DNA of 64,000 bases from Turritopsis dohrnii (taxonomy: Eukaryota > Cnidaria > Hydrozoa > Anthoathecata > Oceaniidae): positions 310,001 through 374,000 of the forward strand of contig BQMF02000254.1 in the NCBI GenBank assembly GCA_027922465.2. Direction: 5' to 3'. The notes under the pieces are model-generated. The model did not search any database and was not told the DNA's origin. It was given only the letters and a program-made list of their open reading frames with translations. Below are positions 31,546 to 59,181 of this stretch, in pieces; the first letter of the stretch is position 1, and each line of letters opens with the position of its first letter. The position numbers were made by a program, and so were the translations under genes.

Positions 31546-31977
31546 GCAACTGCAAGTCATTTTTGGGTAAAAGGCCAAAGAGCATTCTTTGATGTAAGGG
31601 TCATTGACCCAAACGCTTCGAGGTATTCAACCCAAAGTCTGCAAAAATGTTACGAAAGGAACGAAAAGGAGAAGAAATCAGCATATAATGAACGAATACT
31701 AAATATCGAACATGGTAACTTTACTCCGTTGGTTTTCACTATTCAAGGAGGAATGGGTCGAGAGTGTAAAACGTTTTACAAGCGACTTTCTGAGATGGTT
31801 GCTGATAAAAGGAAGGAGCATGCATCAATCGTCACGAACTGGATACGAACAAAGATATCCTTCGCTCTTTTAAAATCAAGTCTGGTGTGTCTCCGAGGTT
31901 CCAGATCACCTTGGAATCAAAACAATGTAAAAATGACAGAAGACATCAGCATCGTTTCAAAAACGTCACACGTGTAA
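31546..31977 (+). pseudogene. Retroelement-associated C-terminal domain fragment (copy 2)
   Basis: Identical translation to copy 1, through the tandem duplication. Confidence 0.5.
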
Positions 31978-33345: not shown

Positions 33346-33833
33346 TTAGTGTTGAAGAAGAAATTTCCTTATTCGTTTCTTCTTTTCATCGTCCCAAGGT
33401 CTCCACTGACACGCCACATCACATGCAGTTTCGCCATCTTTATTTTTAATATGACGATCTGCTCCGTGACGTATCAGGAGTTCAACACATTCGAAAGAAC
33501 CATACTGTGATGCTAAATGAAGTGGTGTGTCGTTGTAGTGATCTTGTTTGTTGATGAGATGATGAGGTGCGGATTTTATAAGCAGGGAGAGACAATCGAA
33601 ATAATTACTCCATGCAGCTACATGAAGTGATGTTTGTCCACCGTTGCTCATTGCTTCTATATCTGAACCTCTCTCTAGTAATAATCGAACAATCGATGAT
33701 TTGTTGTAAGAAGAAGCCCACATTAAAAGTGTCGATCCATTACGATCATCCCTCATCTTCACGATCGATGGAGAGATTGTGAGGTGGTGTTCGATGGATG
33801 ACACGTCGCCATTTTCGATAAGATCTCGAAGAT
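33346..33833 (-). CDS. NTPase gene exon 10: ankyrin repeats and stop
   Basis: Phase 1 entry; acceptor TATTTTAG; stop TAA at 33348-33346. Contains four clear ankyrin repeats ([17 protein letters not shown].., [16 protein letters not shown].., [19 protein letters not shown].., [10 protein letters not shown]..) preceded by a half repeat [18 protein letters not shown]. No polyadenylation site was pinned down. Confidence 0.85.
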
Positions 33834-36800
33834 CTAAAATAAATGAAAAATAAATGATAAAATGAATGAAGAATAATCGAAATAAAAATAGATTTTAAAT
33901 GGAAAGAAATTCTAAACAACTAATAATTAATAATTATAACAAATAAAAATAAAAAGTAAAACTAAATAAAAAAAGGTTTTAGAATTTATCAGAAATTTTG
34001 TGAAATGACAATGTTCATTTTGTGGGATTATCTTCTAAACCAATCAAAATAACTGACGTTTTATGATGCGCACCTCCCCCTGGTGGTACGCAGAGGTGAC
34101 GCAAGTGGACTGGGTGGTTGTGGAGCGCCGCGGATGGGTGCACCCACCACCTATGACGTCATAGCAAAACTTAATGACGTGTATCTCTTGAACTGTTCGT
34201 CACAGACATATGGTTCTATATATCATTTTAATCAGCTTTTCAAGCTCTAACTGATGGTAAATAAATCTTAAAGCGAAATGAATCTTCATAATTTCTGTCC
34301 GTTCTGGATCCGAAAATTGGTAAGCCAGATACGTTTCCAATTCAAAATGTGATCGAGCAATAGAAATATTAAATGAAGTGAATTTTCGAAATTTCCACTT
34401 GTTCAAAAGCAGATCAAGATCTGAAAATATTCTACATTCTTGCCAACCATGCTAATGCGAGTGGAATCGTTGAAAATTGTTAAACCAAAAGAATCACATA
34501 ACATCTACAGAAATGAAAACCCGATCAAAGATTTTTTTACCTTGTTGCTAAAGATATTTGTATGAGAAGTTAGAACATTTGTTTATTCAGATTCAAACAT
34601 ATGAATAATTTAAAATAACACCAGCACCACCGATGCTTACAAGTCTTCAATCCAACTGAACGACGAGAAAATAATCGAACTATACTTGGCGGGAAGAAAA
34701 AGAACTTAATCTATTGTCATTTTATTCGAAAATCTACACAGGCAGAGTTAATAATGTTCGAAACTTATATATGGTTCAAATCACATGACAAAAACAAAAG
34801 AATGACATGAAAGCAACTTGGAAGGAGAGAGGACTTCGGTTAAAACTGAAAAAACGAGGACATTTAACATTCATTTCATTAAACAGATTTATTTAAAAAA
34901 TACGTTATCACCGCTAGAAAAAAACTCCAGAGATACTATCGAAAAAATATAGTTCTCTAAAATCGAAGTTTGCATAGAGCTTAACCATCAAAATTAGCGA
35001 TAGTGGCCGAAAAGCGAACTTGTTACACGTTTTAGGGTTTAGATATTGTAAAATCGAAAACACGAGGTCTATTCGTGAAAGTGCGAAACCTTTCTAACAG
35101 CTTCATTATTTATGATTTTGGAAAAACACTCATTTTTCAAGCTTTAACGCCCATTAACGCAAACACCCTCTTCGCAATAAAGGAATTTATGAATCTCTTG
35201 TGAATTGCAAAAACAGTTTCATTCCGTTATCTAGGGTATCCCCTAAACATTGTCCAGAGGACACAACGAAGCCAAATCAGCTGAGTCAGGCAAAATTAGA
35301 CGGTTAAACGACAAGTTCTATTACAATGTATAAGATAACTTAACATTCATCACATTCTAAAGTTTTTTACAATCAGAAGATATATGGCTACAACGTACAA
35401 ATTTTGGATATTGATTTCCATGACTATAAGAATTTACATAGAACATTCACGATTCTGTGCCAATGGCTTTCAAAGATTTTCAGTACTAGTTAAAGTGAAC
35501 TTCATGAATCATGTAATTAGAGAAACAATAGATACATACAAACGAAGCGAAAGTTTATTACTAGTCAATTAATACTGTGCTTAAACAGGAATATGGGAAA
35601 GATCTGCTTCATTTCTTTTTTACCTGTTAACAATAAACATTGTTTGAGAAAGAATTTCTCAACTGGTCTCCTTTCTGTAATCAGAGAACATACTGATAGT
35701 AGAATTTCTTCATGTAATATTTGCATGAAAACACATATTCTATATTCTAAGTTTCGCAGAAAACAGAATAGTTTACGTAGCCTCATTTATATCGAAAATC
35801 TTAAGTGTAAAATTGACTATATCAAATAAATCATACATACCATCGAAAGTGTATTCTTTAGATGAAGATGACGTAGCTTCCGTGTTTGATGTTTGGCTAT
35901 TAAGAAAAAGATGAAAACATTAGAATTAGCGGAACTACTTAAACATGTAAACAAAGTACTGATGGCTAAACATCATCACAAGCACTTTATGTGAAGATTT
36001 CTTCTGTTAATTTTATAAACAAAATAAAATAAAGTATACCTTCTAACATTACTCGATGAGGACTCCTTAGGAGGTGCAGATGAGAGCGGAGAAGACGTAG
36101 TTTGACTAGGCAAGTTTGATGGTTGACTATAAAAAAACAACACCATTATATAAGCATTGTGCCAAACTTCCAAAAAAGCTACCTCATTAATATAAAGAAC
36201 AGTGTTGAGAACAAACAAAGTATACTTTCGAATAATATTCGACGGGTAATGTATCTCAGCTGGTGCAGACAGTATGCCTCCATATTTACTGATGGCGTGT
36301 ATTACAAATTTACATGTTAGTTGATTTTCTATAGTTAATTGGACTCTGTTGCCATGGAAAAGTGGATGTATGATATCGTATTCTTCACTAGCTTGCGATG
36401 TATCTGCCGACATTTTCGTTCTTGCCACTTGAAAGGAATTATCAGGATGAACCCAGGTGAGTTCTATGGAATTATCAGATAACATTTGCCCCTGAAGTTC
36501 TTGTACAGGTTCTGGCTGCATGAAGCTAAAGACACAAATGATAAACACTTTCAAATATAACTATACTAACATGATGTGTGTACGTATACTTGGATCAACA
36601 GAAAGTGTTCAGAATTCAAAATGTTCAAAAACAACAGGAACATAAATAGACCGAAACAAAACCTGAAAACGTCAAATATTGTTCCTACGGCATAACTTAA
36701 ACGAAATATTTCAGGAAATATTTCTATTTCAAAAGTTCAAAGATGATAATGTAAACTGCCTTTCAATAAATAAAGGAACAACTGAATACCGTAATGCAGC

Positions 36801-39800
36801 ATTTTCATCTGCCTTTGGCTTACTTGGCACCTCAGCTGGTTCGCTAACTTTGCAATATTTCTTGTGATGGGGATGATTTTTGTTGATTCTGATGGTAGTT
36901 ATCTTTGACTCACTGCAGAAAGAGGAAACAGTATGTGGAATCTTTTTGTCTTGACTTTCAGTCAGTAGATATGAATAAATCTCCAGAAAACTGTTGTCAC
37001 TGTCATGACATAACTTCTTCACAACATCACCCATCGATTCTCTTTCATTTCCTGCATATAATGTTTCATCATAAGGATAAGGAACAATAAGGACTAAATG
37101 ATCAGTGCACCTCGAAATCTTCTCAATAAAAAACTGCCTTTTAAAATGTTCCTTTGGGTCAATAAGGACAACAAGTTCTGAACATTCCAAGCCTCTACAT
37201 CCACTATAATCAGTCAGTACCGTTTTTCTATTAAATGTCATTTCGTTGAAAGATTGGTCATCCGAAGCGCCAGGTATGTAAAGAGTCCATTTCTTTCCTA
37301 AACTAGTCAACGCAGAGGAACACATTCGGTATTCATTTTCATCATTACATATGATCATTCGTTTCTCGTTTCTCCTTCCTGCACTGTAGACGTGGCATTG
37401 CAAAGCTAGAGACAACAAAACTGATTTCTCCAGAGCCGATAACTCTCCTTGTTGATTAAGAAATACCAAAACTGGTTTACGACCATTGATATTATGTCCA
37501 CAGTCCACACACTGTTGGAAGATAAAATTGGTTTCCACAACTGCATTTGAACCTTTATACTTCTTCTCATTTTCATTAGCGACTGAATCAATCTCGTCTG
37601 GATTTGAATGCTGAACCTGCAGGTCTCTCTGCACTGCGGGTAAGTGTGGTAAGTCTAAGGATGGTTCTGATGCTGTTTCAGTTCTTGCACTAACATTAAC
37701 AGGACTGGGAATTTTATTTGATCGACTGTGGATATTTCTTTGACAGGAATCCGATATCCGTGGTGGCTGCAAGACTCTATTTGGAAGAGAAATTCCTTCT
37801 GCTGATAATTCAATGATTTTAGATACTTGTTTGGTGGTGCGCATTGATAATGATAACGACATTACTTCCATTCCACAGTCATTATAACATTGGAAAGACT
37901 CGTGTTCAATTCTTTGGTTACCAACAACAGTAGCACGCCTTTTCTCCATTGAACGCATCGAAAATAAAATATGGGATTTGTCCAGGGATACTTCATTTTG
38001 TTTGAAGATGTTTTTCAGTGCAAGTGCTTCTACTGCATTGATGACTTCAGCATCAAGCTCATCAACAATGAGATGAAACCTCCTGCCTGAAGATTTCGCC
38101 TTCTCTATCATGGCCAGCAGCATGTTTGAAACAGTGAAAGGAATCTTTCGACTTCGGTTTTCACAAATTTGCTCAAATTCCTGTGATAGCCACATTTCTA
38201 CATCTTTACAATTTCCAAAAAGGACATTTGCGTTTCCAGTACGGCCAGCTTCTTTTATTTTCTGGAAAACATCTTCAAAGCCTTTCAGGAACAAACTATC
38301 GTTGTCAAATAAGACAAAGTATATATCTACAGGCTCTGTTGCATACTTCACTAAATGTTCGAGAAGATACCTTGTCACTACAGACTTCCCTGTGCCATAT
38401 CCACCTGTCACTATTTTCCACAGTTTCTCATAGAACACAACTTTTAACTGCTCTTCAGTCAGCCACATTAATAATATCTTTTCTGTCACTGTCCCAAAAA
38501 TGATTTTTGGCACGATTTTTCTGATTGCAAGGAAACTGAAGATGTAACTGACTCCAAGCATTATGGGTTGGAGACTTTGGTTTGCATCATCGAGTCGTTT
38601 CGGTGCGACATTGTCAATGTAGGAATGTAAATCAAGAAGTTTGTCTGCCAAATCCATTTCAAAAATATCATCTCTGTTAAGAATAAGAAGGTTTTCACAT
38701 TGATGTTCAATATTTGGTGCAGCTACTATGTTGACGTACGAGAGGTCTTCTCCAAGAAGTGAACTGAATACATAGAAAAATAATCGGTAAAAGATATCAC
38801 CAGCCTTCAAGTCTATCAGGGCTCCTTCTTCACTGTCAGCTTCACTGTAATGTACGATGAAGATGCATTGCTTCACATAATCAAACACTAGAAATTGTTT
38901 TTCTTCAGCAATTGATGATTGTTCAATTCGCAGTTTATCACAAATGTCATTAAGATCAAGATGAAGCATCTTACAATGTTCAATAAGATTATAGTCTGTT
39001 ATCAAAACTGTGTTGGGTAATTCAAATTTTGTTGCAACATCATAAAGTTTCTTTCTACACATATATGCTGGTGGAAACCTAATATTCTCATTAAGCAAGT
39101 CAGTAACATCAATGCTGAAGTATGCTGCAAAAAAGTTTCTGCATTTCTCAGTGTAGTCATCAAACGACAATTTCGTGGTGGACAGTTTACCACTAGTGAC
39201 AATGCTGACTTGCTCTGGCCTTTCTATCTTCGATAAATCCAACTTCTCATAAAAATCTCTAAACGCCGAATGGGTTAAAACTCCAGGCTTTGTGCGAAAA
39301 ACAGATGTTTCTTCTTGGCCATCAGTAACTAAAATGATGAAAATAAATTGAAAAACAAAATTATAGGCAATTATCCCAAAGCAATCACTAAAGAAGAAAA
39401 GGGAAAGAAAAACATGTTGCCAGTTTGTTTTTCAAAACTTTGATGTCATAACTGCTAGAAAAATTCATGAGTGATTTGGAAAATTCTAGAAATACGGAAG
39501 AATTTCGCAAAGTCCACAAAAGATAATGGATGTTTACTTTCCATTAATTCAAACCTTGTGTGGTTCTACCTGGGTTTTAGAAACAAACAAACCGAAAAAT
39601 TTATAAATTAAATCGAAATGTCTCATTAATGTTTACTTATGTTTTTTACGGTAGCAGCGATAGCGAATACCGTATTAAAACACCCGTGGACTCCTACTCC
39701 TCCTCCTCCTCTTCCTCCTCCTACTACTCCAGCCGAAATGGCAATTAGTCTGCGATTAGAGTCTGCGTGACTCTACTAATAACGCAATGTAAGTTCAAAT

Positions 39801-42800
39801 GAAGGAACGCAGCCTTCGAATTTTGGAAGCTTTTCTATAACAAACATTAGATTGCGTTTTGTTTCAAAAGTACATAATCTGATATTTTGTAGCTTTAACC
39901 ATGAAAGAATGAAATCTTATCAAATAGACCTACATAAAAATGGGACTTTTAGTTCATTGCGCTAACTGAAAATACTTGATATGTTGCTTTTCTTCTAAGT
40001 AAAGTTTATCAGTTCAAAATTTATTATTGCCTCAGTTGTTAGCTAACTATACACTATGTTTCTGTATTAAGGCTTTCAAAGATCTAGTTAGATCTAGGCA
40101 GTTATTTGTTATATATTTCCCCATAGGGCGAAATATATGTTAAAACCGGCAGTTTCCTTCTCTTTCATCATCTTCTCCGTTCACTTTTATAGCCGCGGTT
40201 CAGAATGCAATTTTCGCCTAGGCGCCAAAGTAGATAAGAATAGAGGCTAGTCTACAGTCAAGTAGTACGCCATGTTTTTTTTTTCAGTCAGTGCGGATGG
40301 GCTGTAGAAGATTTTTGATTTTTCCACTAGCTTTTAAAATGATTCAAGGGAATTCAACTTTAAATGATGGAAATAAATCATTTTAGTTCAGTATTGTCTT
40401 AAAAGGTTTCGTAAAAACTTTTGAAGAACGTGTAAAAACAGAAAAATGTTGTTTTGTTTTTGTTGAGATGATGATTGATTGGTAATTAAATGCTTGGAAC
40501 AACAAACCATTGAAGCTGTGATTTTAGTGCAAAGGCGAAAATTCATTATCAATACAGGCAGAAGATTTATTTTCATTTTACGTCCTGATATAATGTGAAC
40601 TGAAAGCACATATGATTTACACGTACAGCGCTATAAAAGGAAGTCTTTTTTTATGTGGAGAACAACCAGTTCAACCAGTGTTAATTCAAAAAGTATATTT
40701 CAAAAACAGCAAGTAAAAATGTGATGTCGTATATGCAATAAGAACGTCGGAAAACCAATTACGTATAATAACAGACAAGATTGAGAGACACAAATATCTG
40801 CTCGGAAAATGTGCTTCCCTAGATATTCATTTAATCTGACAACAGAAACATAAATTTACTATGGATTAATTCCATGATCACCTATACTGTAAATTAAATC
40901 AAACCAGAACACGAAACGTCTACTTTCAGCTTTTTAGTGATTTGGTTATGGATATGTAGTCTATTTTCACTACAGAAATCTTTTTTTTTTTTTCATTTAG
41001 GATTTACAATGGTCATTTTTATCAAATAATAAATAATGAGTGTGCACATATTTTTTTGAACAGAGATGTTTATTCTGAACACTTGAATTTAATTTTATAA
41101 ATTGTCACTTTAAGCCCATCTCTTTTTTGAAAATAACTCTTCTGTCAAAATTTTTTGATTGCTTTTTGATAGTTATTTGCTTATATATTGAAGATATTCT
41201 TCAGGGCGTAAATCTTTAGTAAAAAGAGAATAACGAGAAGTTTCATTTTGATTTATAATTTAATTCAAATTTCGTCCTGCATGATGATGTTCTGTGGATG
41301 TAGGACGAAATATTGAATTGAATTATAAATCAAAATGAAACTTCTTGTTATTCTCTTTTTGCTTATATATCTGCCTCATAGTATTTTTAATAACTATACT
41401 GTAGTACTAAAATTAAGTTTGACAATTTTCTTTTCTTCTTTTGTAAATGTGATTGTATAATTTTGAAAGACAGTTTTATCTGAGTTACAAAAAGCAAGTG
41501 CAAGTGTCTTCCGTTACATTACATTGTTTTGTTGTGATTTTATAGTATAAAGGATGTCAAGCTTCTGCAACAATAAAGATCATGTTTATTATGCTAAAAT
41601 CGCCTTACACATTGGTGCGGTTGTTGATATTTAGTTGTTTAATATTTATAAAAGAAACCTCATTTGACCATGAACATCTTCATTTCTTAATAAATTCAAA
41701 ATAAGTTCTTTTGTGGTATCAAATTCAATTCTACCCTGTTTAGTAAGGACAACATTTTTATCTGAGAGTATGACATTGATGGTAGTTATACCATTCATTG
41801 TAGTTATTTGATGATGTATATTTTTCTTATGATATTTAATGATGTATATTTTTCTAAACAATGTATGATATATAATGATGTATAATTAAGTTTCGCAACT
41901 TTGGGGAAATATATAGTCGCATTTTTGCGAATCTTGTTTGAATTCATTTTTGGTTTCATGAAATTATAATTAAAAACATTACATTTTTTTTTCGAAACGC
42001 GTGTTTTTTTTCTACACAGTCTTACTAAAAATTTTCTTATAAAAAAATCATATACAGCTCACGCATGTATAATTCTTTTGTCTTTAAATAAATTAATTTC
42101 TGGTGGTTTATGATTAGACCCTTTTTACACTAACTAATCATTTTAACAAATTTATCGTTTATGCCTGTTTTCCACCAGTGAGATATAAAAAAACACAAGC
42201 CTCAAAGAACTTTGTAGTAACCTTTGATAACTTTAAGTACAATTTAAGTACAATTGCTGCTACCGTTTTGCGCCATCTTGTTTTACTTCAAACTTCCTTT
42301 TCAGAGTTAATTGATTTAAGTGTGGTAATAAAATCATACGCTATGTATTCATGTAGTATGGAATAACTAAAAATATGATCTTACCAGAAACATAAGATTC
42401 TAGGTTGAACGGCTTGGTCTGACTAAAATTGTAAAAAAAAAAAAGATGTCATTTCATGTCATTTCAAGTGATGCTGAGATCCATTGGAGGAGAAAAGATC
42501 AGAAAATGATCTGAATACAGCAGTTACTGACTTTCTTGGCATCACATTGTGAAACAAAACTGACCCTTCATTTCTAGGCTCATTTTTGCGAAAATTCTGT
42601 TCAATGTAAATGTGATGTAAACCAGTTTTTAATGTTCTAAGTTAATTTTATGCCAGTGAAAACCATGTCTTGTATGTGTGATGTTCTATTGTTGCTACTG
42701 TACTGTCATGAGGGAATTATTATGTGATAATTACTTTATGTTAATTACCTTTTTAATTACCATGAAAAAGCCGCGAAATCAACTGAACTTTCAAAGTACG

Positions 42801-45800
42801 TGTGGGAATTAAAAAAACAAGGGAATTGAACCTAAACTTATGTGGGAAATAATCGATCATGCTATGCCATATAAAACGGTAGTAAAGCTTGCAACCTTTG
42901 TTTAACAGAAAAGTACAATATAATAACTTCAGAGCTTCCTTTATTAAACAAAAGAATAGAATTGATATCAAAGTGTCGTCACTTAAGCAAATTTCTTTTG
43001 AACAATTATAAATCAGTCCCACCACACTAAATTGATTACTTCACTTATTTCGTCTTTTTTAGCATTTTTAACATTGTCAATTAACTGACTTGCTAATGAC
43101 TTTTTAATGGTGTAATTTTCTTTTGTTGTGCTGATGAAACCTTTAGAAACTTTTAAGTATAGCTTTGCGTATTAATTTCCCATAATAACTGATCTTAAAA
43201 ATTTTAAATAAAATTTTTTTACTGTGTGATAGTTTTTAATTTTTTTTATTGTGTTTACAAATGACCTTCATTGTAAAATGAGTTAATTGATTTTTAAGAA
43301 TTTAATGAACTATATCTTTGAGTTTTTCTTCAATATCTTTTCGAAGAACAATATTTTGTCAAACATTTTATATTGATGGATAGAGCATGAAAAGCTCTCT
43401 CTTGTGATATAAAATTCACAATATTTTATCAGACATGTAATGAGATATACGCCTTGAAAGTTGGTGGATAAGACATTTTGAGACACACTGTATATAAACA
43501 CCTTGAATTTTTCATTTGTATGTATATCTGAGGATCGCACTAAGCGTGAAACTGACAGTCATGTACTTTTTTAATTTTTAATTTTAATTTTTAACAAATT
43601 TAAATAAATATATTATGCTCTACATAGTATTGAGCACAGTCTTCAACATTTGTTCACTTCACTTCATGTTAATTACCTTTTTATACAGTTGTTTTTCACA
43701 TTTTTTCTCTCTTCACTTCACATCAAATCTCTGTCATAGCAGGTCAATTTTTGATCATTTCAACAACATCCAGGCGCATATCAGTTTTCATATGGCAAGC
43801 TGGTGAGTTTATGTAATTATTTTTATGTTCGCTTCAATATCTAATATATGTTATTTTCACAAACAGTTTCAATGTAAACTTTTCAGTTATATTTTTGTAT
43901 TTTTGTTTAGTTTGAACATACACAACTAAGTTGAAACACCTGTGTCCTTTGTTTTGTGCCTTCTATGCATCTACGTATAGACGTAATGTTCAACGATATT
44001 CGCCGCGTCTTATCTGTTGATTCTAATGAGGATATTAAAGAGATTTAATACAGTAGAGTCTTCTGTTGTCGACCAATCGTTAAGCATGCTCTGCGTCGCG
44101 TATAGAGGATCCAACTTGAAAACACCATGTCCTGTGTAATTCCCACGTAACCGGCTAAAACGATCCAGTTATTCGTTCTCTCAGGATCAAGTTTGATTTA
44201 GAATTACAATCAAACAGCAATGAAGAAGAGTAGGCTTCAAAGGAGAAAACCAGTTATCAACTTTTTGATTCAACTGGTGAAAAAGGAACTCTCAGGCGTC
44301 GCAGAGTTATCAAACCTCATACAACACATGTCTTTGTCAGTCCTAAACAAAAAATCAACCAATCAGATGTAAGTCAGTTATTTATCAATTATCAATCCAC
44401 CCGTGATGACATCATTGATTTTATGGACGAGAATCAGTTAGAAGTCCAGTGGATCTCTACACGAAGGTGAAGCCATTTTAGACAAAATAAAAGGCATGAG
44501 GTCAAAATATTGTACCACATTCATCGAAATTCAAGTAACAATTGTGCATCATCAATCAATCGTTTAAAGAATTACATATCGAAGCAAATGTAGAAGTATC
44601 CAACCTCATTGATGCAGAAATAATGAGTAGAAATGAGATACTCCAAATTCGAAGTCGTATGGATAAAATATTATCTGATTTGAATGAATTGCTCAAGTCG
44701 TCAAAAAACGATGTACAAATAGATGATGTCAAAGAAAGATACGCAAACATTCAATTATCAATTCAGCAGTACTTTGACGCATTAAAGCTAAACTTTAATC
44801 AGCGAGACTTAAAGAAACAAAAGCTTTTTCATGAGAGCAAACTAGATATCAAACTATTAAAATTCAAAGGCTATAATTCATCTACAGACATTTACACATT
44901 CCAAGCAAACTTTGAAAGACTGTATGTGACAGTGACGCCCGTGCATTTATTGCCTGACATGTTAAGAAATTACTTTCTAGAGCAACTAGCTTTGTCCTTA
45001 GTTAAGTGTTAAGACAACATTGATTAAATATGGGAGCGTTTAAAAACGGCGTATGGAAATCCCAAGAATCTGATGGAAAGAAAATTAGATGAAGTTAGCG
45101 CTGTCAGTGAAATATGGAGATAAAAAGATCCAGAAAAAACCATGGAAGGACTAAGTAAAATCATCAAAATCATGAAAGATCTCATTCTTCTGTCTAACAA
45201 ACACCTCATACAAGATAAACTTTACAACGGAAATGACATCGAACGCATTTACAAGTTACTTGGAGACGGACGTGTTACTAGATGGTTATCTTACTCCTGT
45301 GTTGATAATCTTGATGGTGAGGACCTTTGGAAGAAACTTATTGTATTTCTCGAGGAGTTGAAAGTCCAGCAGCAGAAACATCTTATACTGCAGAAATCTG
45401 ACGAACCAAAGGGAAGAATTCAAAAAGATGGCAATAAGTCAGATAAAGGTGGAAGGTCATACATTTCAAATGGAAAGGACCAAGGAAGAGAGTTAATCAC
45501 TCGTCACATTGTTCTCATATATGCTGTATTTGTGGTGCTTCTGATCATGTGATCCAGAAACTAGAAACCAATAAAACCGCAGAGACATACAGATTTTGGA
45601 AGATGGAACAAGCATTAGCTGGGAAAATCGAAGAATTCAAAAACAGACACTGGATTCAAAGTGAACGTTGTGGATTTGATAGAGACGAACAAATGAGAGA
45701 CCAAATTGTATTCAAAGGCAAGTATAAAAAACTCTGCAGAGGTGCCTTCAATCCTTGAGCCTTGGTTGAGACCTTAAACTTATGAAAGAAGGCTGCAACC

Positions 45801-48800: not shown

Positions 48801-51800
48801 AAAAATAGTGCTTAAAAATTCTTTTTTTTTTCTTTTTTACATTTGAGGCGTAAATAACGGCCCTAAGTGGTGTTAAGGCAAAATCTTGGGGTGGCGGAAT
48901 AAGGGCCGGCGTAAAAAGGGCCGGCGTTAAATTAGGGCCGGCGTAAAAAGGGCCGATAAGGTATTGAAATTGGAGTCAATGAACTTCTAAAAACAGGCTT
49001 TAGGTCGGAGGAATTTCATTTGTACTAATTAACGAAAATTGGGATTACTTTGAAAATTTTCCGGGAAAAAACTTTTGCGGTTTACCAATATTGCAATACT
49101 TTGAGGGAATAAACTTTTGCAATTCGTAACAAAACCGCAAAAACCGCAAAACTTTCTTCCGCAAATACATTGTTCCTTTAAAGTATGTGCCCCAAAGAAC
49201 AAAGAGATAGCGGTGACACTGAAACACATCAGAGAGGAAACAAAACATGACACAACATTACAAAAGCTGCTGGAAATGATAAATAAAGGAAACGCTCACC
49301 TATATCCAAAATAATATAGACTGCAACCATTCCGAAAGGTTTTCAACAAGCTTACCACCAACAATGAGATCATCAAAGAAGGCAGTCGAATTTTTTCACC
49401 CAAAAGACTCTGTCAAAAATTAATAATTATTGGACACGAAAACCATCAGAGCCTTGTGTGAACAACAATTATTGTGCAGCTCTACATGGTTTCTGAGTGC
49501 AGAACAACACAAGCACTAGCTAGATGAGAATCCAATTAACCAAGACAACAGAATGTATGATGTGACAATGGCCCCTAGGTATCTATTTCTATTGATTTAT
49601 ATGTTGCAAACACCAAACAAGTCTTGGTAGAAAAGGACGAATATTCATGATTCCCTGCCATAGAAATTGTCAAATTAACCAGTGCACAAAACACCATCCT
49701 GAAGTCAAAAAATTCGTTGCAGACTTTGACAACCGAAAGAAGATAAAGTCAGATAACAGACTATCATTTAATGGAGAAGCTTTTAAAATCTTTGCCAAAA
49801 TAAAAGGCGTTTACCACCACTGCATCATTCCTCAACATCCAAAATCAAAGACTAAGAGATTATATTAAAGGACCAACATTTCAAATCTACTCAATACAAC
49901 ATGAATTCCACAAATGGAACAGAACATCCACAAGACAATGTCAAAAAGAATAAATCCCCTGGACTGTCACATCAACTAAAAGAAAGAATTCAAATCCAGA
50001 AGGGAAAGAAAACATTATCTCGACATGTCAACAACCTGAAACTAAAAAACGATTGTGGTTTCCTAAACAGACACAATCACTGAAGCAACCAGCATGCCCA
50101 TCAAGCGACTCAGACTCTAGTGATTTAGATGACAAGCAGGTCGAAGAAAAAACAACTTGTACATAATTGTTGAAAAAAGGACAGGATGTAGTATCCAATC
50201 TTAGATTCTTAATATGCTATGTTTTCTTGTAACTTCTAGGAAGGGTTCGCCCAAGTGAACACTGCAATTCGTTTTCTTTGAAGTTGAGTAATGACATCTG
50301 AGTAACAATCATTGAAGTAACAATCATTGTGTTTGCAACACAATTTGAAAATTAGTTTCTTATAGTCATATTTCAACTCAAACTCCATCAGGTATAAACA
50401 CACTTCCTAATTTATACATAAACGTTTTTCCAAATTTGTTTCTGAGCGCCAAGAATTTTAAGTTAGTTGGAAAATGGAAATTTATATCAAAAATATCACA
50501 GAATGTTGTAGAGGCTATAAACTGATTCAAGAAATGTTTGTTAAATAAATAATTATGTAAATCATACCTTTTAGAATTTACACCAAAAAAAGCTAAAATT
50601 AAGAATGAGAAAATGTGGATTTAGTAAAGACTATCAGTTGTTTATAAAATATTAAAAATAATAAAGATATAATTCAAATATAGAAACCTTCATATTACCT
50701 TGGTCAATATATGCAACAACTTGACCTGCATCCAAACATGTTAATACTTTCTTAAGAAAGGCCCACGTAGTTTGAGATTGATCGTTTGATTCATACCATT
50801 TGCACAACACTTGTAGCAGCCTCTCTTTCACATCATCAGGGTAATCCATTCTTATGACTTGTAATTCATGGTATTCAACAAGTATATGACCAATGACTCT
50901 CTCAAGATAAGGCAGTCGTCTTGAAATTTCTATGAAAATTTCTTTGAATTTCCTTGATTTTTCTTCTGCACTTTGAAAACAGTCATCTTCCAATGTGTCT
51001 ATCAAAAAAATAACAGTCAAAAGTAGCATAATTTATTTCATTTAGTCACATTTGGGACTTGTGCCATCTTCAATTCCAACCAATTAATGTACACACTTCC
51101 TCAGAGAAACATTTTTGAAAACATGTAGGATTATCAAAAAGGGTTTATTATAAATTCTGCTCTACAACCCAATGAACCCTTGAGTATGTATTTAGAATTG
51201 ACATGATTTCTTTCAACCCTCTAGTTGTCTTGTTTCTTATAATAGCTATGTAAAATAGCAATATTTTCATACCTCCTAGAACTGGTAGCTTTTCCAGTTG
51301 TTCCCTAGTGATGATGTGAACCTTGAGACCACAATTCCTCAGAGTCTCGTTAACAAATACTAAAAAGTTTTCATCTTCCCAGTTTGATACCCGATGTGCT
51401 ATCATGTATGCAAAACATTCGAGAACTGGTCTCTCCTGTTTACATTGGTGAAACAGCTCCTCTACCTTTATGTTATCACCATATAATAAATCTTTACAAA
51501 ATTTCTTTTTGTCCACAGATGTTTGTGCACAAAGTCGTTGATCAACAAGGTATGCAATCCAGAGCTCTGTAAGAAAAAAAGCATTTTGTTAAGGGCTTAA
51601 AATATGATATTTAGATGATGTTCAAAATATCAAACACTTAAAAGTTCACATACTAGTGGAGAAATTCTTAAGTGGAATTATTTGTGAATGACTGTTTCCA
51701 ACACATTTACTTGTTTTACTTGTATGGAACAAAAAATTGGGAGAATATTCATTAAAAAAAACCCAACAAAACACCTGACTCACAGTTACTTGAATATTAA

Positions 51801-54800
51801 AGAGTTATTTGAAGAGTTGTTATGTTTGTTTTTATTATCAACCCTTGCAAAGATGTAAACAGTCACTAATTTGTAAGTAGTTAAAATTAAAGAAAAAATG
51901 TAGAAAAAAAGAAGAAAATGTAGATACAGCATTAGGAAAACAATAGATCATTTTATTGAAAGGAAAAAGATCATAACCATCATGAAAACAAGACCATACT
52001 TATGCCACAAATAAACTCCCTTGATTATCTTTCATAACGACATTTTTTGTGTTATTGCATGTGGTTACTTAATTTTTGGACGGGTGTAAAATCCACAACA
52101 GTTTTGCTATTGACGATAACCCTATTGACAAACTGGTCCCAACTTGATATATTTTTTGTACTTAAGATTTTGGTACATAAGCAAGTATATGAAAATCGTT
52201 TCGTTTTAATATATCATCCAAATGTTTAATGAAAGAGCTTTGTTAATATATATATGAAAAAATTTATCAAAAAATTTATCAAAACAACCAATCCAGCTTT
52301 GAAATCCCAGCTTCACGATGATTATAAACGACATAGAAACCAAATTGTCTTTCTGTGCAGAATTAGCAAAAAAAAAATATTATTTTGAATACTTTAGATC
52401 CAACCTTAACAATATTAAAAACATATGGATTGGAGTTAAGAAAATAATCTCTGTAAATTCTTCTCGTCCTTCTAATACTCTTTCCTTGTCTATCAATGCT
52501 TCTATTACATCTGATCCCTTTATAGTATGTGATGCTTTTAATAACTATTTTTCTTCCATAGCTGATACTATAAGGGCCACTATACCTCCCACCTCTATAC
52601 ACTTCTCTCACTTTCTGAAGCAACCCAGAAAATCCATTTCGAAACTAAAATTATCTCTAGTTACTCCTGCAGAAATTAATTTTTTCACAAAATTAATTTA
52701 ATCTATTCCAAATAAAAAGGCTAGTGGTCCTTATAGTATTGATATAAACATTCTTAAACTCCTCAAACTTGAAATCTGTAATCCCTTGCATAAAATCTTC
52801 AATCTTTCCTTTTCTACTGGTGTCTTTCCTACCCTCTTGAAAACCTCTTCAGTCACTCCTGTTTACAAAAACAAGGGGTCTCCGCTGGAAATTTCTAATT
52901 ATCATCCCATTTCTCTCCACTCCAATATCGAAAAACTCCTGGAAAAACTAATGTATTCTCACCTTTCTTCTTTTCTCGAACATCATGAATATCTGTATAA
53001 GAGACAGTTAGTTTCAGAAAAGGGCACTCTACTTCTCATGCCCTTATTAATATCACAGAGCGCATTCGTAATGCACTTGACAATGGTCAGTTTGGTGTAG
53101 AGGTCTTTGTCGATCTTCAGAAGGCTTTTGACACAGTTGATCATAAAATTCTTTGTCAAAAATTAAACTATTATGAAATTCAAGGTACCACTAACAGATG
53201 GTTTAGGTCTTATCTGTCCCATAGAACACAGTTTGTTAAAATTCTTAACCACAAATCTGATATAAAAGCCATAAGGCACGGTGTCCCACCATGCTCCGTC
53301 CTTGGACCTCTACTGTTCCTAATCTATATTAATGACCTTCATCTTGCTCTTGCTTACTCTGATGTCTTTCATTTTGCTGACGATACCAATCTTCTTCTAT
53401 TTAGCAAGTCATTAAAGTCCCTCAACAAGAAAATAAACATTGATTTAAAACTTCTTTCTAGTTGGCTTAATGCCACCAAAATCTCTCTGAATGCCAGTAA
53501 AACTGAGTTTATTGGTCAGCGCCGCGAGGTAGCTGATCTTTCATTTCCCCGTGTCTGTCAGTCCGTGTGTGTGTAATGTTGCAGTTGTAGGCTGATACCG
53601 TGCAGGCTGTCAGAACTTAGACTAATTTAGTCCATGGTTTAATTAAGAAACGTTCATGATTGAGTAGTTACATTTTTTTTTCATGGTAAGTGCGGCGTAA
53701 AAATGAAAAATTGGAATGCGAACTTGCCAGAAGAAAGATTCAGCGTTCAAGCCAGTTTGTTTGCGAAATTTTTGGTAATGAAACAAGAATACATCCAGTC
53801 ATACGTTTTACATCGAAGCAAAGGAATTCTTATAGTTTCTATAGTAATTCTTTTCCGTTTCGTGTATTTTGGGTAACCCTAAGTTATATACTGAATTTTG
53901 TGGAGTTTTTTGTGGTGGTGTGTGTTTATTAGTATGGGTGTGTTGTGTGTGGAGAGGTTAAATGACCTAATGGATATGATAGCTCGGCTGCTTCCAAGGG
54001 TCCATATTCTCTTGGATTTACATGTTTTCATTTATTATCATGCCTCGTTTTTTATTATCATTCATGTTTTTTATGAAATAATATCGTTACTTCTGCCTCC
54101 TGAACTAAAAGTCAAAGAGAAAGACTGAAAGGGTCAATTTTAATGCGCCACACATTAAAATGAATTTAATTTTATTGTTTTTTGTTAAAAACCTTGCAGT
54201 AAAAGATAATGAGATTCAATACCAACCAACAATGCATATATATTATTTGAGAACCAATTTCGATTAAAATCAACTTCAGCTTCACCTTCAGATAATACAT
54301 AACGAAAACGGTTCAACTGTTTAGAAATATCTATCAAAGTCTAGTCATATTTACATTGCAAATACTATATACTTGACTTCGACTTTCTTGAGTTTCTTTG
54401 TGTTTTTGGGTCCTCTAGAGTATTCAAAATAAATGGACAAAAACAGTTTGAAATGTATAATATTTTATTTCCTACGAAAGTGCATGCACATGCTCAGAGG
54501 AAAATGACTTGATCAATGGTGTTCTATGATGAAAGTTATTATGTGGCAATTATCAAGTAAACAATGTTAGTGTTTATAAACATTGTAGCACTTGGTAAGT
54601 CGTCTACGTTGTTTTTTTGTATTCATCGTTTGCCAGCATAATAATCACAAGTATATATATATCAAGTATATATCATTCTATTTATATTCATCTCTGATGC
54701 TGAATAACACTTTGTAATTCTGATGATCACAATAACCTGTATTGTCAAAAAATGTACTTACTACTTTAGAAGTAGTAATTTTATAGATGACTGGCATTTT

Positions 54801-57800
54801 TTTTCTTTCAGGGAGAACAGTTGTCTGAAGTTAGGAACAGAGATAATTGATATCTACTTAAATTGATTTGTTTATATAAATATGACTTATGAATTTAAAC
54901 ATGTTTCAATAACATTTCCTGCTATATAGGTGCTATTTCACAGTCATATGTTGTTATTGGTTGGTATGATTATCATGTAAAGTTTGTTTGTAATTTTATG
55001 AAAGTGTATTCCTTTTCTTTATTGAAAAGGTAGAGCAGAAACTAATTTGTGATTTTCCATGATTCAAAAGGCAAATTGTGTTTCGATTAACAGGAAATTC
55101 ATAGTTTTACCCAGTGCTTTATTATTTTTTTGGTGTTATTGTTTTGAAAAACTGTCATTATTACAGTCTTAAGTAGCATGTAAGAGCAGGTTACTACTAG
55201 AGGATTTTAAGATTAAAAAACTTTAAGTACTTAGTAATAACATGGTATTTTCGGGATGATTTGGGATTAGTAGCCCCTCGTTTCATTGAAAAAATTTCAA
55301 AATAGCCCTCACTGATTACATTTAGCTTTGACTTGTAAGTGGATACAGCATTTGTTAAAAATTATTAATCTAAAAATTCATTTAATCAATTTTATGAAAG
55401 CTATTTATGTCCTACTCACATCAACACAATGATTTTGCCAATATTGTTTTATTACTAAGATCTGATCCCAGCGCTTTTTGTAAACAATTTGCAATGGTTT
55501 CTGATTATGGTAATCAGGACATTTACGTGCATTTCACGAGCATTAGCAAAATTGATCTGCAAAATGTGTACCTGAAAATTTGATACAATTTTTGGATTTG
55601 AACTCTATGATGATGAATATTAGACTGCTTGAAATTTGTACATGTTTGAAAGGAAGTCTAGTGTTTATTCCTCTCTTTGGTTAACGTTACTGATCTTTCA
55701 TTTCTCATCACTAGTCAATCATTCTGTGTGTAATCAGTTTGCAGTTATGTGCGCCCTCTTTAACGCCCTTTTTTGTTATCTTTAAAATTTTTAGTTCAAA
55801 ATCTGAAACTTAGATTCATAGCATTAATTCTTGAACAATAAGCCTTCAATAATATGTAATAATCTAAGGAATATCGCCATCGCTTTTAATTTCTTAGTTT
55901 TCTTTTGCGCTGACCTTAAGGCCCAAGGGCCTCTTGTTCTATTTAAACACAAATCTAAACCACTAAACTTTAATCTAAAAATCAAGATTTGTGGCAGGAG
56001 ACTTCAACCCAGTAAATACATAAAATATCTTGGAGTGTATCTCGACGAGGATCTCTCTTGGAAAAAACACATCCATGAGCTATCAATTAAACTTCGACGA
56101 GCCAATTGTGCATCGAGTAAAATCCGCCACTTTATTCCTGAATCTGTCTCTTTATCTGTTTATCATTCTATTTTTTCTTCTCATCTTCGTTATGGTTGCC
56201 AAGTCTGGGCCTTGCACGAGTCCACTTACAATAAACGCATCCTCCTTCTTCAAAAAACAGCTGCTCGCCTTATTACCTTTTCTTCTTTCAGATCTCACTC
56301 TAAACCACTCTTTTCAAAACTTGGCTTGCTTTCCATCTTTGATTTAACAATAGCTCTAAATATTCTATTCATTCATCAAATTCTTAATCATAGGATTCCT
56401 GATCACATTCATAGTGCTTTAAAATTCTCCGTTATACCTCACAATATCAATACTAGAAGTAAATCAGCAGGTTCCCTATTTAAACTTAGTGTTAAATCTA
56501 AATTGTATGGATTACACTCATTTACGTACCAATCTGTATGGTGGAATTACTTTCAATCAACTTTTACCCATCTTGACCTAACTTCTCTTTCATATAACCA
56601 ACTTAAAAACCTTCTCACTGACTTCTTTCTTAAAAAATATTCATCCTATGATTAATCTTTCACTATTGGACAACCACTTATCCTTATCCAATAACTTCTT
56701 TTTTTCTTTCCTTTTCTCACTTAAAGATTGTATGATTCTGCATTATATTTTTATTATTATATTATTATTTTCTTGTTTTCTAGTATATGATTGTTTTGGT
56801 GGCCACCCCCTGTGTTTAGATTCATCTATCGGGGTGGTCTCCTGTCACCACTTTATCCTGATGTATCACTTTATTTTTGGGACAAATAAATGAATATTCT
56901 ATTCTATTTTATTCTATTCTTATGACCTCGGTCTTAGTGATCAAACTTTTCAGCGATCGGCGTTTTTGAACGAAATAAAGCCAAAACGAAAATAAAATAA
57001 AATGTAAACAAACGTGAAGAATGTGTGAAGCTAGAATCAACTTCATACTCATATAAAAATGCTGTCCATACTAATCAGGGTGGAATTCAACTTAATACCA
57101 CAAAAAATATCATTTTGAACTTATGAAATGAAGATGTACGAACATCAAATGATAAGATTTCTTTCACAATTTTATTAGATTATTAAGAAATAAGAAAGAT
57201 AAGCATTCTAAAATGTTTCTGTAGTTACCTTTTTCACGGTCTAACGATGTTCAGATTGACCTAAATTTATTTTTGTGTTTTGTAACTAGTTTTTAGATTT
57301 CTGCGTAAGGAAGAAATCTGTTAAAATCGTCGGTGTTCTTGGTTCTTTTTATTTTCATTGCTGTCCAAATCTAGCATGATTACATTATATGTCTGTGGTG
57401 CATGCTTATCTAATATGGCACATCGTCAAAATGTCCGATCAAGAAGGCCTCAATCTCTAATCATCTTTTGAATCGCTGTGAGATGAAATATCAAACTTTC
57501 AAGAAACATTTGAAAGTGTTATAAAGTTTTTGTTTTACTCTTCCATTTTTTGAGTGGGTATTACTTAAGTACAAAGTATTCACGAGAAATTCAGAAATCG
57601 TTAATTGCTCGTTGTTATTGCCCCCGCAGCGAGCGTAAGCGAGCGAGGAGGCATAGTAGTTTCACGAGATAGGCGAATGTCAGTTCCGATTTTGTTCTTC
57701 ATCATCATCATCATCATCATCTTCCAACTTTCGTGTTGACGTTACACGGTGGAATACAATTATTAGCTGACTTTGCTTTTTTCCCGTTTCAAAACATGGT

Positions 57801-59181
57801 ACTGTAAGTGGGAGACAGAATGTTTTTTCGTATCTTTCTCCTAATTTACTACTATATTATACTGTGTTATTTAGAAAGTTCGTCTGCTAAAACTGCTTAG
57901 AAATTTTTCATATTACTTTTGTGTTGTTTTCGTAAAGGTAATGACAAGGCTTTTGAAGCACAGTTTAAAATCTGAAATTTTATCATATTAAAAACACATG
58001 TTAAAAGAATCTAACTTGATAATGTAAGTCTGTGTCTTACGAAAAGCTTTGTATGTTTAAGTGGAATTTTTAACATGTGTATATATATATGATGTTTTAG
58101 CCCTTTTAAATCTTTGCTACTTTTTATTTTGAATCAAACCACTTGAAATGATTTCTACTAATGGATTTTTCGGTTTAATTTTTTTTTTTCAAAAAAGTTT
58201 TTTTTTTCTTTTGGTTCTTACAAAATTTCTTTAACAAAATCTTATTTGATTATAAGATACATATCCATGGTTGCAGTTCACACATTTCTTTTGTTTGTAG
58301 CAATACTTTCTGGTATTACTTGTTAAGCCTTATTTACACGTTTTAAAAAGTATATTAGCATTTAGTGTGAGTTAGGTCTAAGAGATAACAAAAAGTAACA
58401 AAGTTTTATGTAGCTTTTCAGCTGCGTAAGTACATCTATTTGGTTTGCATATTTCCAGTTAGTGTCGCCACCGCTACACTAAGCCACAAGGTTACACTGC
58501 TCATTAAATAATTTGTTGTCTTGTAAAACTTAAGTATTTACACTTAAGTATTTGATTTTCGACACGCTCTTTCTTCACTGCATACAGATACTTTGATCAC
58601 GATTTGTATTTGAAATATTGTGTATTGTTTGCCATACATAAAAGACTCGCTTTGTCGAAATATTTAAAGTATGCCACTAATCAACCAAAAACATTTTTAC
58701 AAAAATCCTTAAGTTACAAAATATTTGGGCGGAAAGTTTTCTTTTTTAATGTACAGCTTACTGTGTGTAAAAATTGGAAAGCCTGAGCGTGGGGGCATTT
58801 TTAGCTAAAGCTACATGCTAGTTTTGTTTTAGCGTCCCTGAAATATATGTATACTACTATCCCGGCGTAAAAGATTTTTACAGTTTTTAATTTCCAAAAG
58901 GATACGTGCACAAAAAAATAATGATTTGGAAGAATGTTTTTAACGGTGCTTCTTGTTTCAGAGCACTAAACCTATTCAAAAGTAATTTTATATTTTTATT
59001 TATTTATATTTTTTAAATTTCGCTTGGACCCCACTATATTTAAAAAAAGAATTAAACAATTTCCATGAACACACAACTTAAACTTGTTTTGTTTTCCAAT
59101 ATATATATTCACTGTATGCACAATAAAATGTTCCTTACTTTGTTTGCAACCAACAATATTTTCATTTTGAATCAGTGCCAT
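33346..59181 (-). CDS. Death domain / SF1-type P-loop NTPase / FN3 / ankyrin-repeat protein, 1389 aa, 10 exons
   Basis: Ten exons read on the minus strand, phase-consistent throughout (4170 nt with stop): 59139-59181, 51273-51566, 50699-50998, 50568-50592, 42385-42422, 36790-39328, 36226-36525, 36040-36126, 35841-35896, 33346-33833. Product: residues 1-112 helical module of unknown family; 113-212 death domain; 213-233 linker; 234-1079 large region with P-loop GGYGTGKS (Lys548), Walker B VDELD (Asp656, Glu657), SF1 motif IV-like SLSMRTT, motif V-like GCRGLE and motif VI-like [13 protein letters not shown]; 1080-1180 FN3; 1181-1227 Ser/Thr/Pro linkers; 1228-1389 four to five ankyrin repeats. 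Death domain plus NTPase plus ligand-type repeats suggests a signalling scaffold or NLR-like sensor in innate immunity or apoptosis; this is inference. Introns hold Gypsy, LINE and MITE copies. Confidence 0.78.
33834..35840. other. NTPase gene intron 9; Helitron-like relic near 34030-34190
   Basis: ATGACGTCATAG and nearby GC-rich sequence recall the 5473-6592 repeats. Otherwise AT-rich without a supported ORF. Confidence 0.45.
35841..35896 (-). CDS. NTPase gene exon 9: Ser/Thr linker
   Basis: 56 nt, phase 2 to 1; acceptor TTAATAG, donor G|GTATGT. Encodes [18 protein letters not shown]. Resembles exon 8 in composition and start (Q-x-S-N). Confidence 0.65.
36040..36126 (-). CDS. NTPase gene exon 8: Ser/Pro linker
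   Basis: 87 nt, phase 2 to 2; acceptor TTTATAG, donor G|GTATAC. Encodes [19 protein letters not shown] and a Ser-rich end; disordered. Confidence 0.65.
36226..36525 (-). CDS. NTPase gene exon 7: FN3 domain
   Basis: 300 nt, phase 2 to 2; acceptor GTCTTTAG, donor AA|GTATAC. FN3 features: PEPVQELQ at the start, [10 protein letters not shown] (strand B Trp), then [15 protein letters not shown] (strand F/G). The 300-nt symmetric-phase exon is typical of FN3 domains moved as units. Confidence 0.75.
36790..39328 (-). CDS. NTPase gene exon 6: SF1-helicase-like P-loop NTPase core
   Basis: 2539 nt open in one frame, phase 1 to 2; acceptor CATTTTAG, donor CG|GTATTC. P-loop [11 protein letters not shown] at 38405-38373, Walker [10 protein letters not shown] near 38066, GCRGLE at 37202-37185, and [13 protein letters not shown] near 37120. 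The order (I, II, IV, V, VI) is that of UvrD/DUF2075-type SF1 NTPases; a clear motif III (GDxxQ) is missing, so helicase activity is doubtful. The 300 residues before the P-loop are unassigned; a stretch at residues 380-442 (hydrophobic strands, then [16 protein letters not shown]) recalls a NERD nuclease-like fold without its catalytic residues. That last point is weak inference. Confidence 0.8.
39329..40109. other. NTPase gene intron 5 (part); CTC microsatellite
   Basis: A TCC/CTC-rich simple repeat lies at 39690-39730. No gene. Confidence 0.5.
40110..41915 (+). mobile_element. TIR element (1.8-kb family), copy 2, uninterrupted
   Basis: TATATATTTCCCCATAGGGC at the start and GCAACTTTGGGGAAATATAT near the end form imperfect inverted termini. 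Aligns along its length with 26309-27710 plus 29180-29745. A minus-strand frame at 41646-41861 ([17 protein letters not shown]..) is the only coding hint. A foldback is nested inside. Confidence 0.7.
41221..41360. mobile_element. Foldback element, 140 bp
   Basis: AAAAAGAGAATAACGAGAAG through TTTCGTCCTGCAT is mirrored almost perfectly by the second half, leaving a 20-bp loop. Absent from copy 1 of the host TIR element, so it is a later insertion. Confidence 0.7.
41916..44200. other. NTPase gene intron 4 (part), AT-rich, no gene apart from exon 5
   Basis: No recognisable repeat family; several minus-strand frames are low-complexity. Around 43990-44150 may be the end of a Gypsy 5' LTR, but no LTR pair was confirmed. 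Confidence 0.4.
42385..42422 (-). CDS. NTPase gene exon 5: 38-nt linker
   Basis: Phase 2 to 1; acceptor AATTTTAG, donor G|GTAAGA. Encodes [13 protein letters not shown] and joins exon 6 as V-T-D-G-Q. It lies between a 1.8-kb TIR element and a Gypsy element. Confidence 0.6.
44542..45758 (+). pseudogene. Gypsy gag remnant
   Basis: 44542-45012 encodes a coiled-coil region then [16 protein letters not shown] and [10 protein letters not shown], a capsid-like start. 45142-45552 continues it after a frame break. At about 45492-45542, in another frame, [15 protein letters not shown] looks like a zinc knuckle. Confidence 0.65.
46240..46317 (+). pseudogene. Gypsy aspartic protease, split by a SINE
   Basis: Encodes [20 protein letters not shown] with the catalytic D-T-G. 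The frame resumes after the SINE as [18 protein letters not shown] (46648 on). Confidence 0.75.
46318..46652 (-). mobile_element. tRNA-Glu-derived SINE
   Basis: On the minus strand it starts with a tRNA-like head (46644-46575): box A TAGTATAGTGG, anticodon loop ATTTCAT (TTC, Glu) on a CTCG/CGAG stem, and box B GGTTCAATTCC. A body follows, ending in AAATAAATAAACAC. It interrupts the protease of the Gypsy element. Confidence 0.8.
47020..47395 (+). pseudogene. Gypsy RT remnant
   Basis: [20 protein letters not shown] then a stop and IRFTVDMTT match the RT start of Gypsy elements. The MITE at 47128-47292 follows directly and the frame goes on as [10 protein letters not shown]. Confidence 0.65.
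47128..47292. mobile_element. MITE, 165 bp, CAGTGGCGGATC termini
   Basis: Inverted termini CAGTGGCGGATCTAGAGGTA with about 40 bp of mirror symmetry. Flanked by CCACT at 47123-47127 and 47293-47297. A relative is at 59643-59791. Confidence 0.8.
47640..47975 (+). pseudogene. Gypsy RNase H remnant
   Basis: LQSFLGMA and [15 protein letters not shown], then [20 protein letters not shown] and [14 protein letters not shown]: the end of RNase H and the tether before integrase. Confidence 0.7.
48401..48961. mobile_element. GGCCGGCGTAAAAAGG element copy 1, 561 bp, TA target duplication
   Basis: Termini CCTTATCGGCCCTTTTTACG and its inverse, with several inner copies of AGGGCCGGCGTAAA. TA flanks at 48399-48400 and 48962-48963. 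About 97% alike to 60068-60629. Carries a small acidic ORF. Confidence 0.85.
48542..48727 (+). CDS. Small acidic ORF in the GGCCGGCG element
   Basis: 61 aa: basic start [10 protein letters not shown], then [20 protein letters not shown] and more Glu/Asp to the stop. In the second element copy the frame is shifted by small indels. A peptide function is not established; the region could also be non-coding. Confidence 0.25.
   Translation: MKFRFEKMKPSLDVKELFGDNEESDEGEVEAEIEVESDDDEGIRENNESINEKEIEIIIID
49188..50190 (+). pseudogene. Gypsy integrase remnant
   Basis: [20 protein letters not shown] (N-terminal), then [20 protein letters not shown] and [13 protein letters not shown] (core, second catalytic Asp region), then SRHVNNLKL near the C-terminus. 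Frames are broken. Confidence 0.75.
50191..50567. other. NTPase gene intron, no gene seen
   Basis: May include the 3' LTR of the Gypsy element (GGACAGGATGTAGTATCCAA near 50178 looks like an LTR start), unconfirmed. Confidence 0.35.
50568..50592 (-). CDS. NTPase gene exon 4: 25-nt microexon
   Basis: Bounded by TTTTAG and AAAAG|GTATGA. Without it the death-domain exon (phase 1) does not match exon 5 (phase 2 entry); with it the frame reads [15 protein letters not shown]. Found from phase logic, so worth checking by RNA. Confidence 0.55.
50699..50998 (-). CDS. NTPase gene exon 3: death domain
   Basis: Phase 1 to 1; acceptor TTTGATAG, donor G|GTAATA. The second half has the classic death-domain helix 4-6 pattern: [17 protein letters not shown], then [16 protein letters not shown] and QVVAYI. 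In this family the domain forms homotypic assemblies with adaptors or caspases. Confidence 0.75.
51273..51566 (-). CDS. NTPase gene exon 2: N-terminal helical module of unknown family
   Basis: Phase 1 to 1; acceptor CTTACAG, donor G|GTATGA. Encodes about 98 residues: [18 protein letters not shown].., a basic/Cys segment [28 protein letters not shown], and an end LEKLPVLG. Amphipathic helices and length would suit a death-fold relative, but I see no diagnostic motif. No known family is claimed. Confidence 0.75.
51567..52290. other. NTPase gene intron 1 (part), no gene seen
   Basis: AT-rich, no repeat recognised. Confidence 0.4.
52300..53513 (+). pseudogene. LINE RT, first part
   Basis: [35 protein letters not shown] after a stop at 52699, [57 protein letters not shown] and FADDTNLLL (catalytic FADD near 53373). 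Three frames are used. Confidence 0.85.
53514..55932. mobile_element. Non-coding insertion in the LINE, about 2.4 kb
   Basis: Starts GGTCAGCGC (53514-53522), with GCGCTGACC at 55907-55915, then TTAAGGCCCAAGGGCCT. A diverged direct repeat (GATCTTTCATTTC.. GTGTGTAAT..TTGCAGTT) is near both ends (53538, 55691). 54450-54610 matches 61040-61190. No protein. Type of element unknown. Confidence 0.5.
55920..56655 (+). pseudogene. LINE RT, second part
   Basis: Continues the broken RT frame: [49 protein letters not shown] and [12 protein letters not shown], with stop at 56653. Any start before 55920 lies in the insertion. Confidence 0.85.
56931..59138. repeat. NTPase gene intron 1 (part): repeat fragments
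   Basis: 57000-57190 is a minus-strand fragment of the 1.8-kb TIR family. 57615-57645 has AGCGAGCG subrepeats. 57700-57720 is a CAT microsatellite. 58843-58910 is the start of a Helitron-like unit. No gene. Confidence 0.5.
59139..59181 (-). CDS. NTPase gene exon 1: start codon exon
   Basis: ATG at 59181-59179, encoding [14 protein letters not shown], donor A|GTAAGG. It sits 2 nt after an acceptor TTTTAG, so an untranslated exon lies upstream, or the protein starts further 5'. Joins exon 2 in frame (K-Q-K-L-W-I-A) after a 7.6-kb intron containing a LINE. Confidence 0.5.

Follow-up and report, generated by a model that had tools for sequence, protein, structure and literature searches.

A hydrozoan gene family joining death-domain-like, SF1-type NTPase, FN3-like and ankyrin parts: a candidate sensor family on the NLR plan

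A locus in the genome of the hydrozoan Turritopsis dohrnii raises two questions: whether one gene joins a death-domain-like part to a helicase-type NTPase and ankyrin repeats, and what kind of protein such a gene would encode. The window, by which we mean the whole stretch of DNA analysed, comprises 64,000 nucleotides (C254:310001-374000). The first-pass annotation had read ten exons in correct phase, encoding 1389 aa, without giving a strand. Consensus splice sites and compatible phases bore out the phasing and placed the gene on the minus strand, but the count changed to 8 exons (1368 aa), or to 9 (1383 aa) if a probable microexon is included. In substance the proposed fusion holds: the sequence indicates that helical and death-domain-like exons, the probable microexon, an NTPase exon of 846 codons, an FN3-like exon, two linker exons and an ankyrin exon belong to one gene. 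The exons are as follows.

59139..59181, minus strand: exon 1 of the first-pass annotation; 14 codons, open and in phase; doubtful
51273..51566, minus strand: exon 2, helical module; acceptor kept in 6/6 sequences; aligns with the N-terminus of Hydractinia P0008
50688..50998, minus strand: exon 3, death-domain-like; 3' end at 50699 for the direct join, at 50688 if the microexon is included
42385..42418, minus strand: probable microexon, 34 nt; similar island and GT donor in 5/5 paralogs; phases
36790..39328, minus strand: NTPase exon (accessory domain and putative SF1-type NTPase); uninterrupted frame of 846 codons; splice sites conserved in 8/8 copies
36226..36525, minus strand: FN3-like exon; weak PDB FN3 matches; fn3 at the same place in relatives
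36040..36126, minus strand: Ser/Pro-rich linker exon; phases; counterparts downstream in 2/2 paralogs
35841..35896, minus strand: second linker exon; phases; counterparts downstream in 2/2 paralogs
33346..33833, minus strand: ankyrin exon; stop codon at 33346; Ank_2 at 6e-23; counterparts in 2/2 paralogs

The order of these exons recurred elsewhere in the genome. In 5/5 paralogous stretches covering the upstream side, the helical, death-like and NTPase exons followed one another as in the window, and in 2/2 stretches covering the downstream side the FN3/linker exons were followed by the ankyrin exon. The first exon proposed earlier, at 59181, is unsupported; the paralog stretches showed nothing convincingly like it. 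In paralog L016, homology upstream of exon 2 stops at 51962, near the point where the L022 stretch ends. The exon 2 acceptor is conserved in the window and in 5/5 paralogs, which indicates that some upstream exon exists.

An island near 42.4 kb, between the death-like and NTPase exons, was alike in 5/5 paralogs, with 5-10 mismatches of 60. Its 34-nt reading is in frame only when the death-like exon extends to the later donor (50688), an extension whose added codons give GNMK, GIVK or GKMK across the six sequences compared. This donor is GT in 4/5 paralogs (absent from L021) and the acceptor of the 34-nt form is AG in 4/5 (absent from L022), both being present in 3/5. The direct join, without the microexon, likewise preserves the frame, with a GT donor in 6/6 sequences (the window and 5/5 paralogs). 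Since L022 has no AG at the 34-nt acceptor, we hold the microexon at 42418-42385 to be probably real rather than settled.

The genome scan covered 435.9 Mb in 891 contigs. The NTPase exon had at least 63 matches, 60 of the 63 without a stop; since nine places match in two pieces, these were merged to at least 54 places, several of which lie together on shared contigs (C36, C325, C249, C4). A death-like exon was found upstream, on the same strand and within 20 kb, at 37 of the 54 NTPase places, where ~0.2 would be expected. This count used the 52 best death-like matches and rose to 39/54 after two more were added by eye. The paired exons were 0.6-11.4 kb apart; this count left 15/54 places without a death-like exon, two close copies (C687, C701) among them. 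Among the window copy and its seven closest copies, dN/dS of the NTPase exon ranged from 0.26 to 0.61 over 28 pairs, with a median of 0.36, indicating purifying selection; the splice sites of this exon were kept in all eight. The family is large, clustered and recently expanded. The death-like exon itself had at least 150 scored matches among 274 candidates in the genome; many of these relatives were not near an NTPase exon of the family, a wider expansion of death domains.

Protein searches from the window returned P0001 alone; with P0001 as the query, 16 proteins were obtained (P0001-P0016), which opened up the family. Six of the 16 carry an organism name, in every case Hydractinia symbiolongicarpus. 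One of these, P0008 (LOC130629467), aligned with exons 2-3 of the window gene at 26% identity over 201 columns (E 7e-12 in the 16-protein set) and combines the window-type N-terminus and the NTPase in a single protein. No relatives were found in viral contigs or prokaryote genomes.

These data bear on the possibility that the exons of two neighbouring genes, or of a pseudogene, had been joined by eye. Introns of 8 to 11 kb with transposon remains would fit such an error. Against it stand the exon order repeated in 5/5 paralog stretches, the death-like/NTPase pairing at 37-39 of 54 places, purifying selection and the Hydractinia protein that holds both parts. We consider an artefact of this kind extremely improbable and rejected it because of the exon pairing and the purifying selection. 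The long intron at 44000-50200 contains broken ORFs that look retroelement-like by eye, three pieces of which had no Pfam match, and a plus-strand LINE-like element (RVT_1, E 4e-20) occupies 52303-56655, within the first intron of the earlier gene model.

Of the parts flanking the NTPase, the ankyrin repeats were clear: according to Pfam, Ank_2 matched at 6e-23, and the protein therefore carries C-terminal recognition repeats. The death domain was less distinct. Pfam Death matched exon 3 at E 0.0011, with 19.5 bits against a cut-off of 22.6, and the exon alone matched PIDD in the PDB at 0.013 and 0.018. A pair profile of exon 3 and its Hydractinia relative improved the PIDD death-domain matches to 0.0018 and 0.0023 and added Ankyrin-3 at 0.015, the chain being its death domain; among the matches of the same profile were also, at 0.013 and 0.014, two designed knot proteins. 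By itself, the Hydractinia counterpart had no Pfam Death match. The evidence from exon 3 alone is thus suggestive of a death-domain-like fold, and it is better with the Hydractinia relative included. The helical module of exon 2 had no Pfam match and no convincing PDB match.

The FN3 part was weak in the window exon, which had no Pfam fn3 match and only weak PDB matches (Tie-1 at 0.16, titin at 0.81). Pfam fn3 occurred at the matching place in P0002, P0003, P0007 and P0009, over the cut-off in P0009 alone. Relatives have a beta-rich segment of ~100 aa between the N-terminal module and the NTPase; searches for it in the window (best E 0.2) and in the 5 paralog stretches (best E 0.39) found none.

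The N-terminal module differed among relatives. At its place, Pfam identified TIR in P0002 and P0003 and HEPN_DZIP3 in P0007 and P0012, with a weaker HEPN match in P0005; the RNxxxH motif was present in 3/3 HEPN members. For the TIR stretch of P0002, the PDB gave no match at 0.001. In a tree of the NTPase, the TIR pair grouped with P0005, and P0008 with P0007, so that the N-terminal labels required three changes where two is the possible minimum. These three changes indicate that the N-terminal module has been exchanged. A single clade of HEPN-bearing rows was rejected (p 1.5e-8), as was one of death-bearing rows (p 3e-4), in tests that are weakened by long branches. By analogy, relatives with TIR or HEPN in place of the death-like part add weight to the reading, proposed in the first-pass annotation, that the gene may have an immune or cell-death role. 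A sensor of self/non-self or of colony identity, rather than of pathogens, might also be expected to belong to a large, clustered, recently expanded family and to have a death-like output. The TIR and HEPN relatives would, by the same analogy, suggest defence instead, and we regard colony recognition as very unlikely.

According to Pfam, all P-loop matches of the window's NTPase exon were below the cut-off: AAA_22 (4.7e-5) and NPHP3_N (6e-4) were the best, and AAA_19 (0.015) was the sole SF1-type match. With E values up to 10 allowed, the window protein matched neither NACHT nor NB-ARC, in agreement with the earlier statement that the NTPase is not of NACHT/STAND type. An alignment of 17 sequences contained 23 invariant columns. 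These include GxxGxGK and a Gln ahead of the P-loop, the DE pair, Arg in MRT, Gly in RG-E, and E and R in the motif VI-like stretch. The motifs were located as follows.

38382..38405, minus strand: Walker A (motif I); GxxGxGK invariant in 17 sequences
38058..38063, minus strand: DE of Walker B (motif II); invariant in 17 sequences
37836..37844, minus strand: MRT, motif IV-like; M and R invariant in 17 sequences; motif name assigned by us
37095..37202, minus strand: motif V-VI-like stretch (GCRGLE ... E..SR....L); aligns with V-VI of RecD, Rep and UvrD

By our assignment of names, SF1 motifs Q, I, II, IV, V and VI are present in order and motif III is altered. The ~260 aa before the NTPase (39326-38530) form an accessory domain that is alike across the family and has no Pfam match. 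Comparison of the whole core with 44 single E. coli proteins using hhalign was discarded as an assay of P-loop class, the classes not being separated: the AAA proteins YifB and RtcR scored highest, and MalT, the sole STAND protein of the panel, was 9th through the P-loop alone. When the C-terminal half without the P-loop was ranked against 136 E. coli ORFs of at least 200 aa, RecD, Rep and UvrD occupied ranks 1, 2 and 3, followed by YifB (4th), RecB (20th) and HelD (52nd). As the E-values of the first three were only 0.03-0.05, the evidence lies in their rank and in the place of the alignments, which fall at the stretch taken as motif V-VI of these helicases. Counting against an SF1 type are AAA_22 and NPHP3_N as the best Pfam matches, the top scores of YifB and RtcR over the whole core, the weak E-values and the ranks of YifB and HelD for the C-terminal half, and the altered motif III. 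We read the switch as a putative SF1-helicase-type NTPase, not a STAND NTPase.

A motor of this type might act directly as a helicase on the RNA or DNA of viruses or transposons, the death-like part serving for docking only and not for death signalling. The SF1-type motifs are compatible with this, and TIR and HEPN relatives would suit nucleic-acid defence as well. The alteration of motif III speaks against it, as does the exchange of the N-terminal module among three signalling or effector kinds, which fits a sensor-output plan; on balance we find direct helicase action unlikely. Somewhat less plausible still is an ordinary, diverged NLR whose NTPase would be an unusual switch of STAND or AAA type. 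The weak AAA_22 and NPHP3_N matches and NACHT matches of 0.15-0.16 in the relatives P0013 and P0015 could be taken that way, as could the N-terminal set, which is that of cnidarian NLRs as far as the available text of PMC8260672 describes them. The lack of a NACHT or NB-ARC match in the window protein counts against a diverged NLR, as do the three SF1 helicases placed first by the C-terminal half and aligned at motif V-VI, and the 9th place of MalT by the P-loop alone. P0013-P0016, which come from ENA sources, are distant relatives of the accessory domain and NTPase, with KGLEF as motif V; one cluster among these relatives has 125 member sequences.

Our preferred reading, which we consider likely from the sequence, is that the gene belongs to a large hydrozoan family of sensor type, built on the NLR plan with an SF1-type switch instead of a STAND one. 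Several known systems invite comparison. TRANK1, DUF2075 proteins and Schlafen group 3 helicases place an SF1-type NTPase in a large animal protein. We liken them to the window protein by description only; a single weak SLFN-g3 match was found, in the relative P0011 (E 0.074). RIG-I-like receptors carry a death-superfamily module before an SF2 DExD/H helicase and a C-terminal RNA-binding domain, whereas the window protein had no SF2 DExD/H or RIG-I C-terminal Pfam match at E up to 10. Cnidarians and brachiopods possess fusions of death-like or TRADD-N domains to Mov10, DDX60 or RLR helicases, in large expansions, according to the available parts of PMC8195603. These fusions resemble the window family in carrying a death-superfamily module on a helicase-type motor and in their expansion; they differ in that Pfam showed no TRADD-N in the window protein, whose NTPase is of another family. 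On the strength of that report, so far as it was available, such fusions are not new in principle; its accessible sections do not describe an exchange of death, TIR and HEPN domains around one NTPase.

Cnidarian NACHT receptors bear an N-terminal HEPN_DZIP3, TIR or death domain and, as portrayed in the accessible portion of PMC8260672, share with the window family this N-terminal set, a central NTPase, in part the C-terminal repeats, and lineage-specific expansion. By contrast, the window protein has an SF1-type motif V-VI and no NACHT/NB-ARC match, an accessory domain of its own before the NTPase, and an FN3-ankyrin C-terminus. Set beside NLRs in general, the window gene has an N-terminal signalling module and C-terminal repeats; a NACHT/NB-ARC STAND NTPase was not found (NPHP3_N at 6e-4, below the cut-off). 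The literature searched, from which most subscription papers were absent, contained no account of this NTPase family and its exchange of three outputs. Tentatively, and with a confidence just short of even, we propose a separate class of animal immune receptor, in which an SF1-helicase-type NTPase replaces STAND, death-like, TIR and HEPN parts are exchanged in NLR style, FN3 and ankyrin parts serve recognition, and at least 50 genes are present in one hydrozoan.

Death domains form clusters to which adaptors are recruited, TIR and HEPN domains serve as enzyme or adaptor outputs, and ankyrin and FN3 domains bind partners. On the proposed plan, an exchangeable N-terminal output module would be coupled to a central ATP-driven switch and a C-terminal FN3-ankyrin recognition part. 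The output would here be the helical and death-domain-like domains, and in relatives TIR or HEPN with RNxxxH. The ankyrin part, the NTPase or both may meet the trigger, which could be a pathogen protein or a nucleic acid that is foreign or out of place; a nucleic-acid trigger would be plausible by analogy, because the motor type is helicase-like. ATP binding or hydrolysis might then alter the shape or assembly of the protein, possibly by oligomerisation, and the clustered death-like domains could recruit a death-domain adaptor. If this is correct, animals built the NLR plan of output, NTPase switch and recognition repeats twice, the second time around a helicase-type motor, and a helicase-like engine would be tied directly to outputs of the death-domain, TIR and HEPN kinds. 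Cnidarian sensor repertoires may then be underestimated, since surveys with NACHT or DExD/H profiles would not count such genes.

The window also contains other elements. Two identical ORFs of 146 aa, 1.76 kb apart (29778-30218 and 31537-31977), had no Pfam match, nor did ORFs at 61748-62667 that resemble a mariner-type transposase by eye. A 672-aa ORF at 8837-12294 is followed by an ORF that has an inverted near-copy; on visual inspection they resemble an element of the Penelope type that includes a GIY-YIG part, without confirmation by Pfam. A second LINE-like element, at 19793-22565, contains an endonuclease (8.6e-7) and RVT_1 (2.4e-18).
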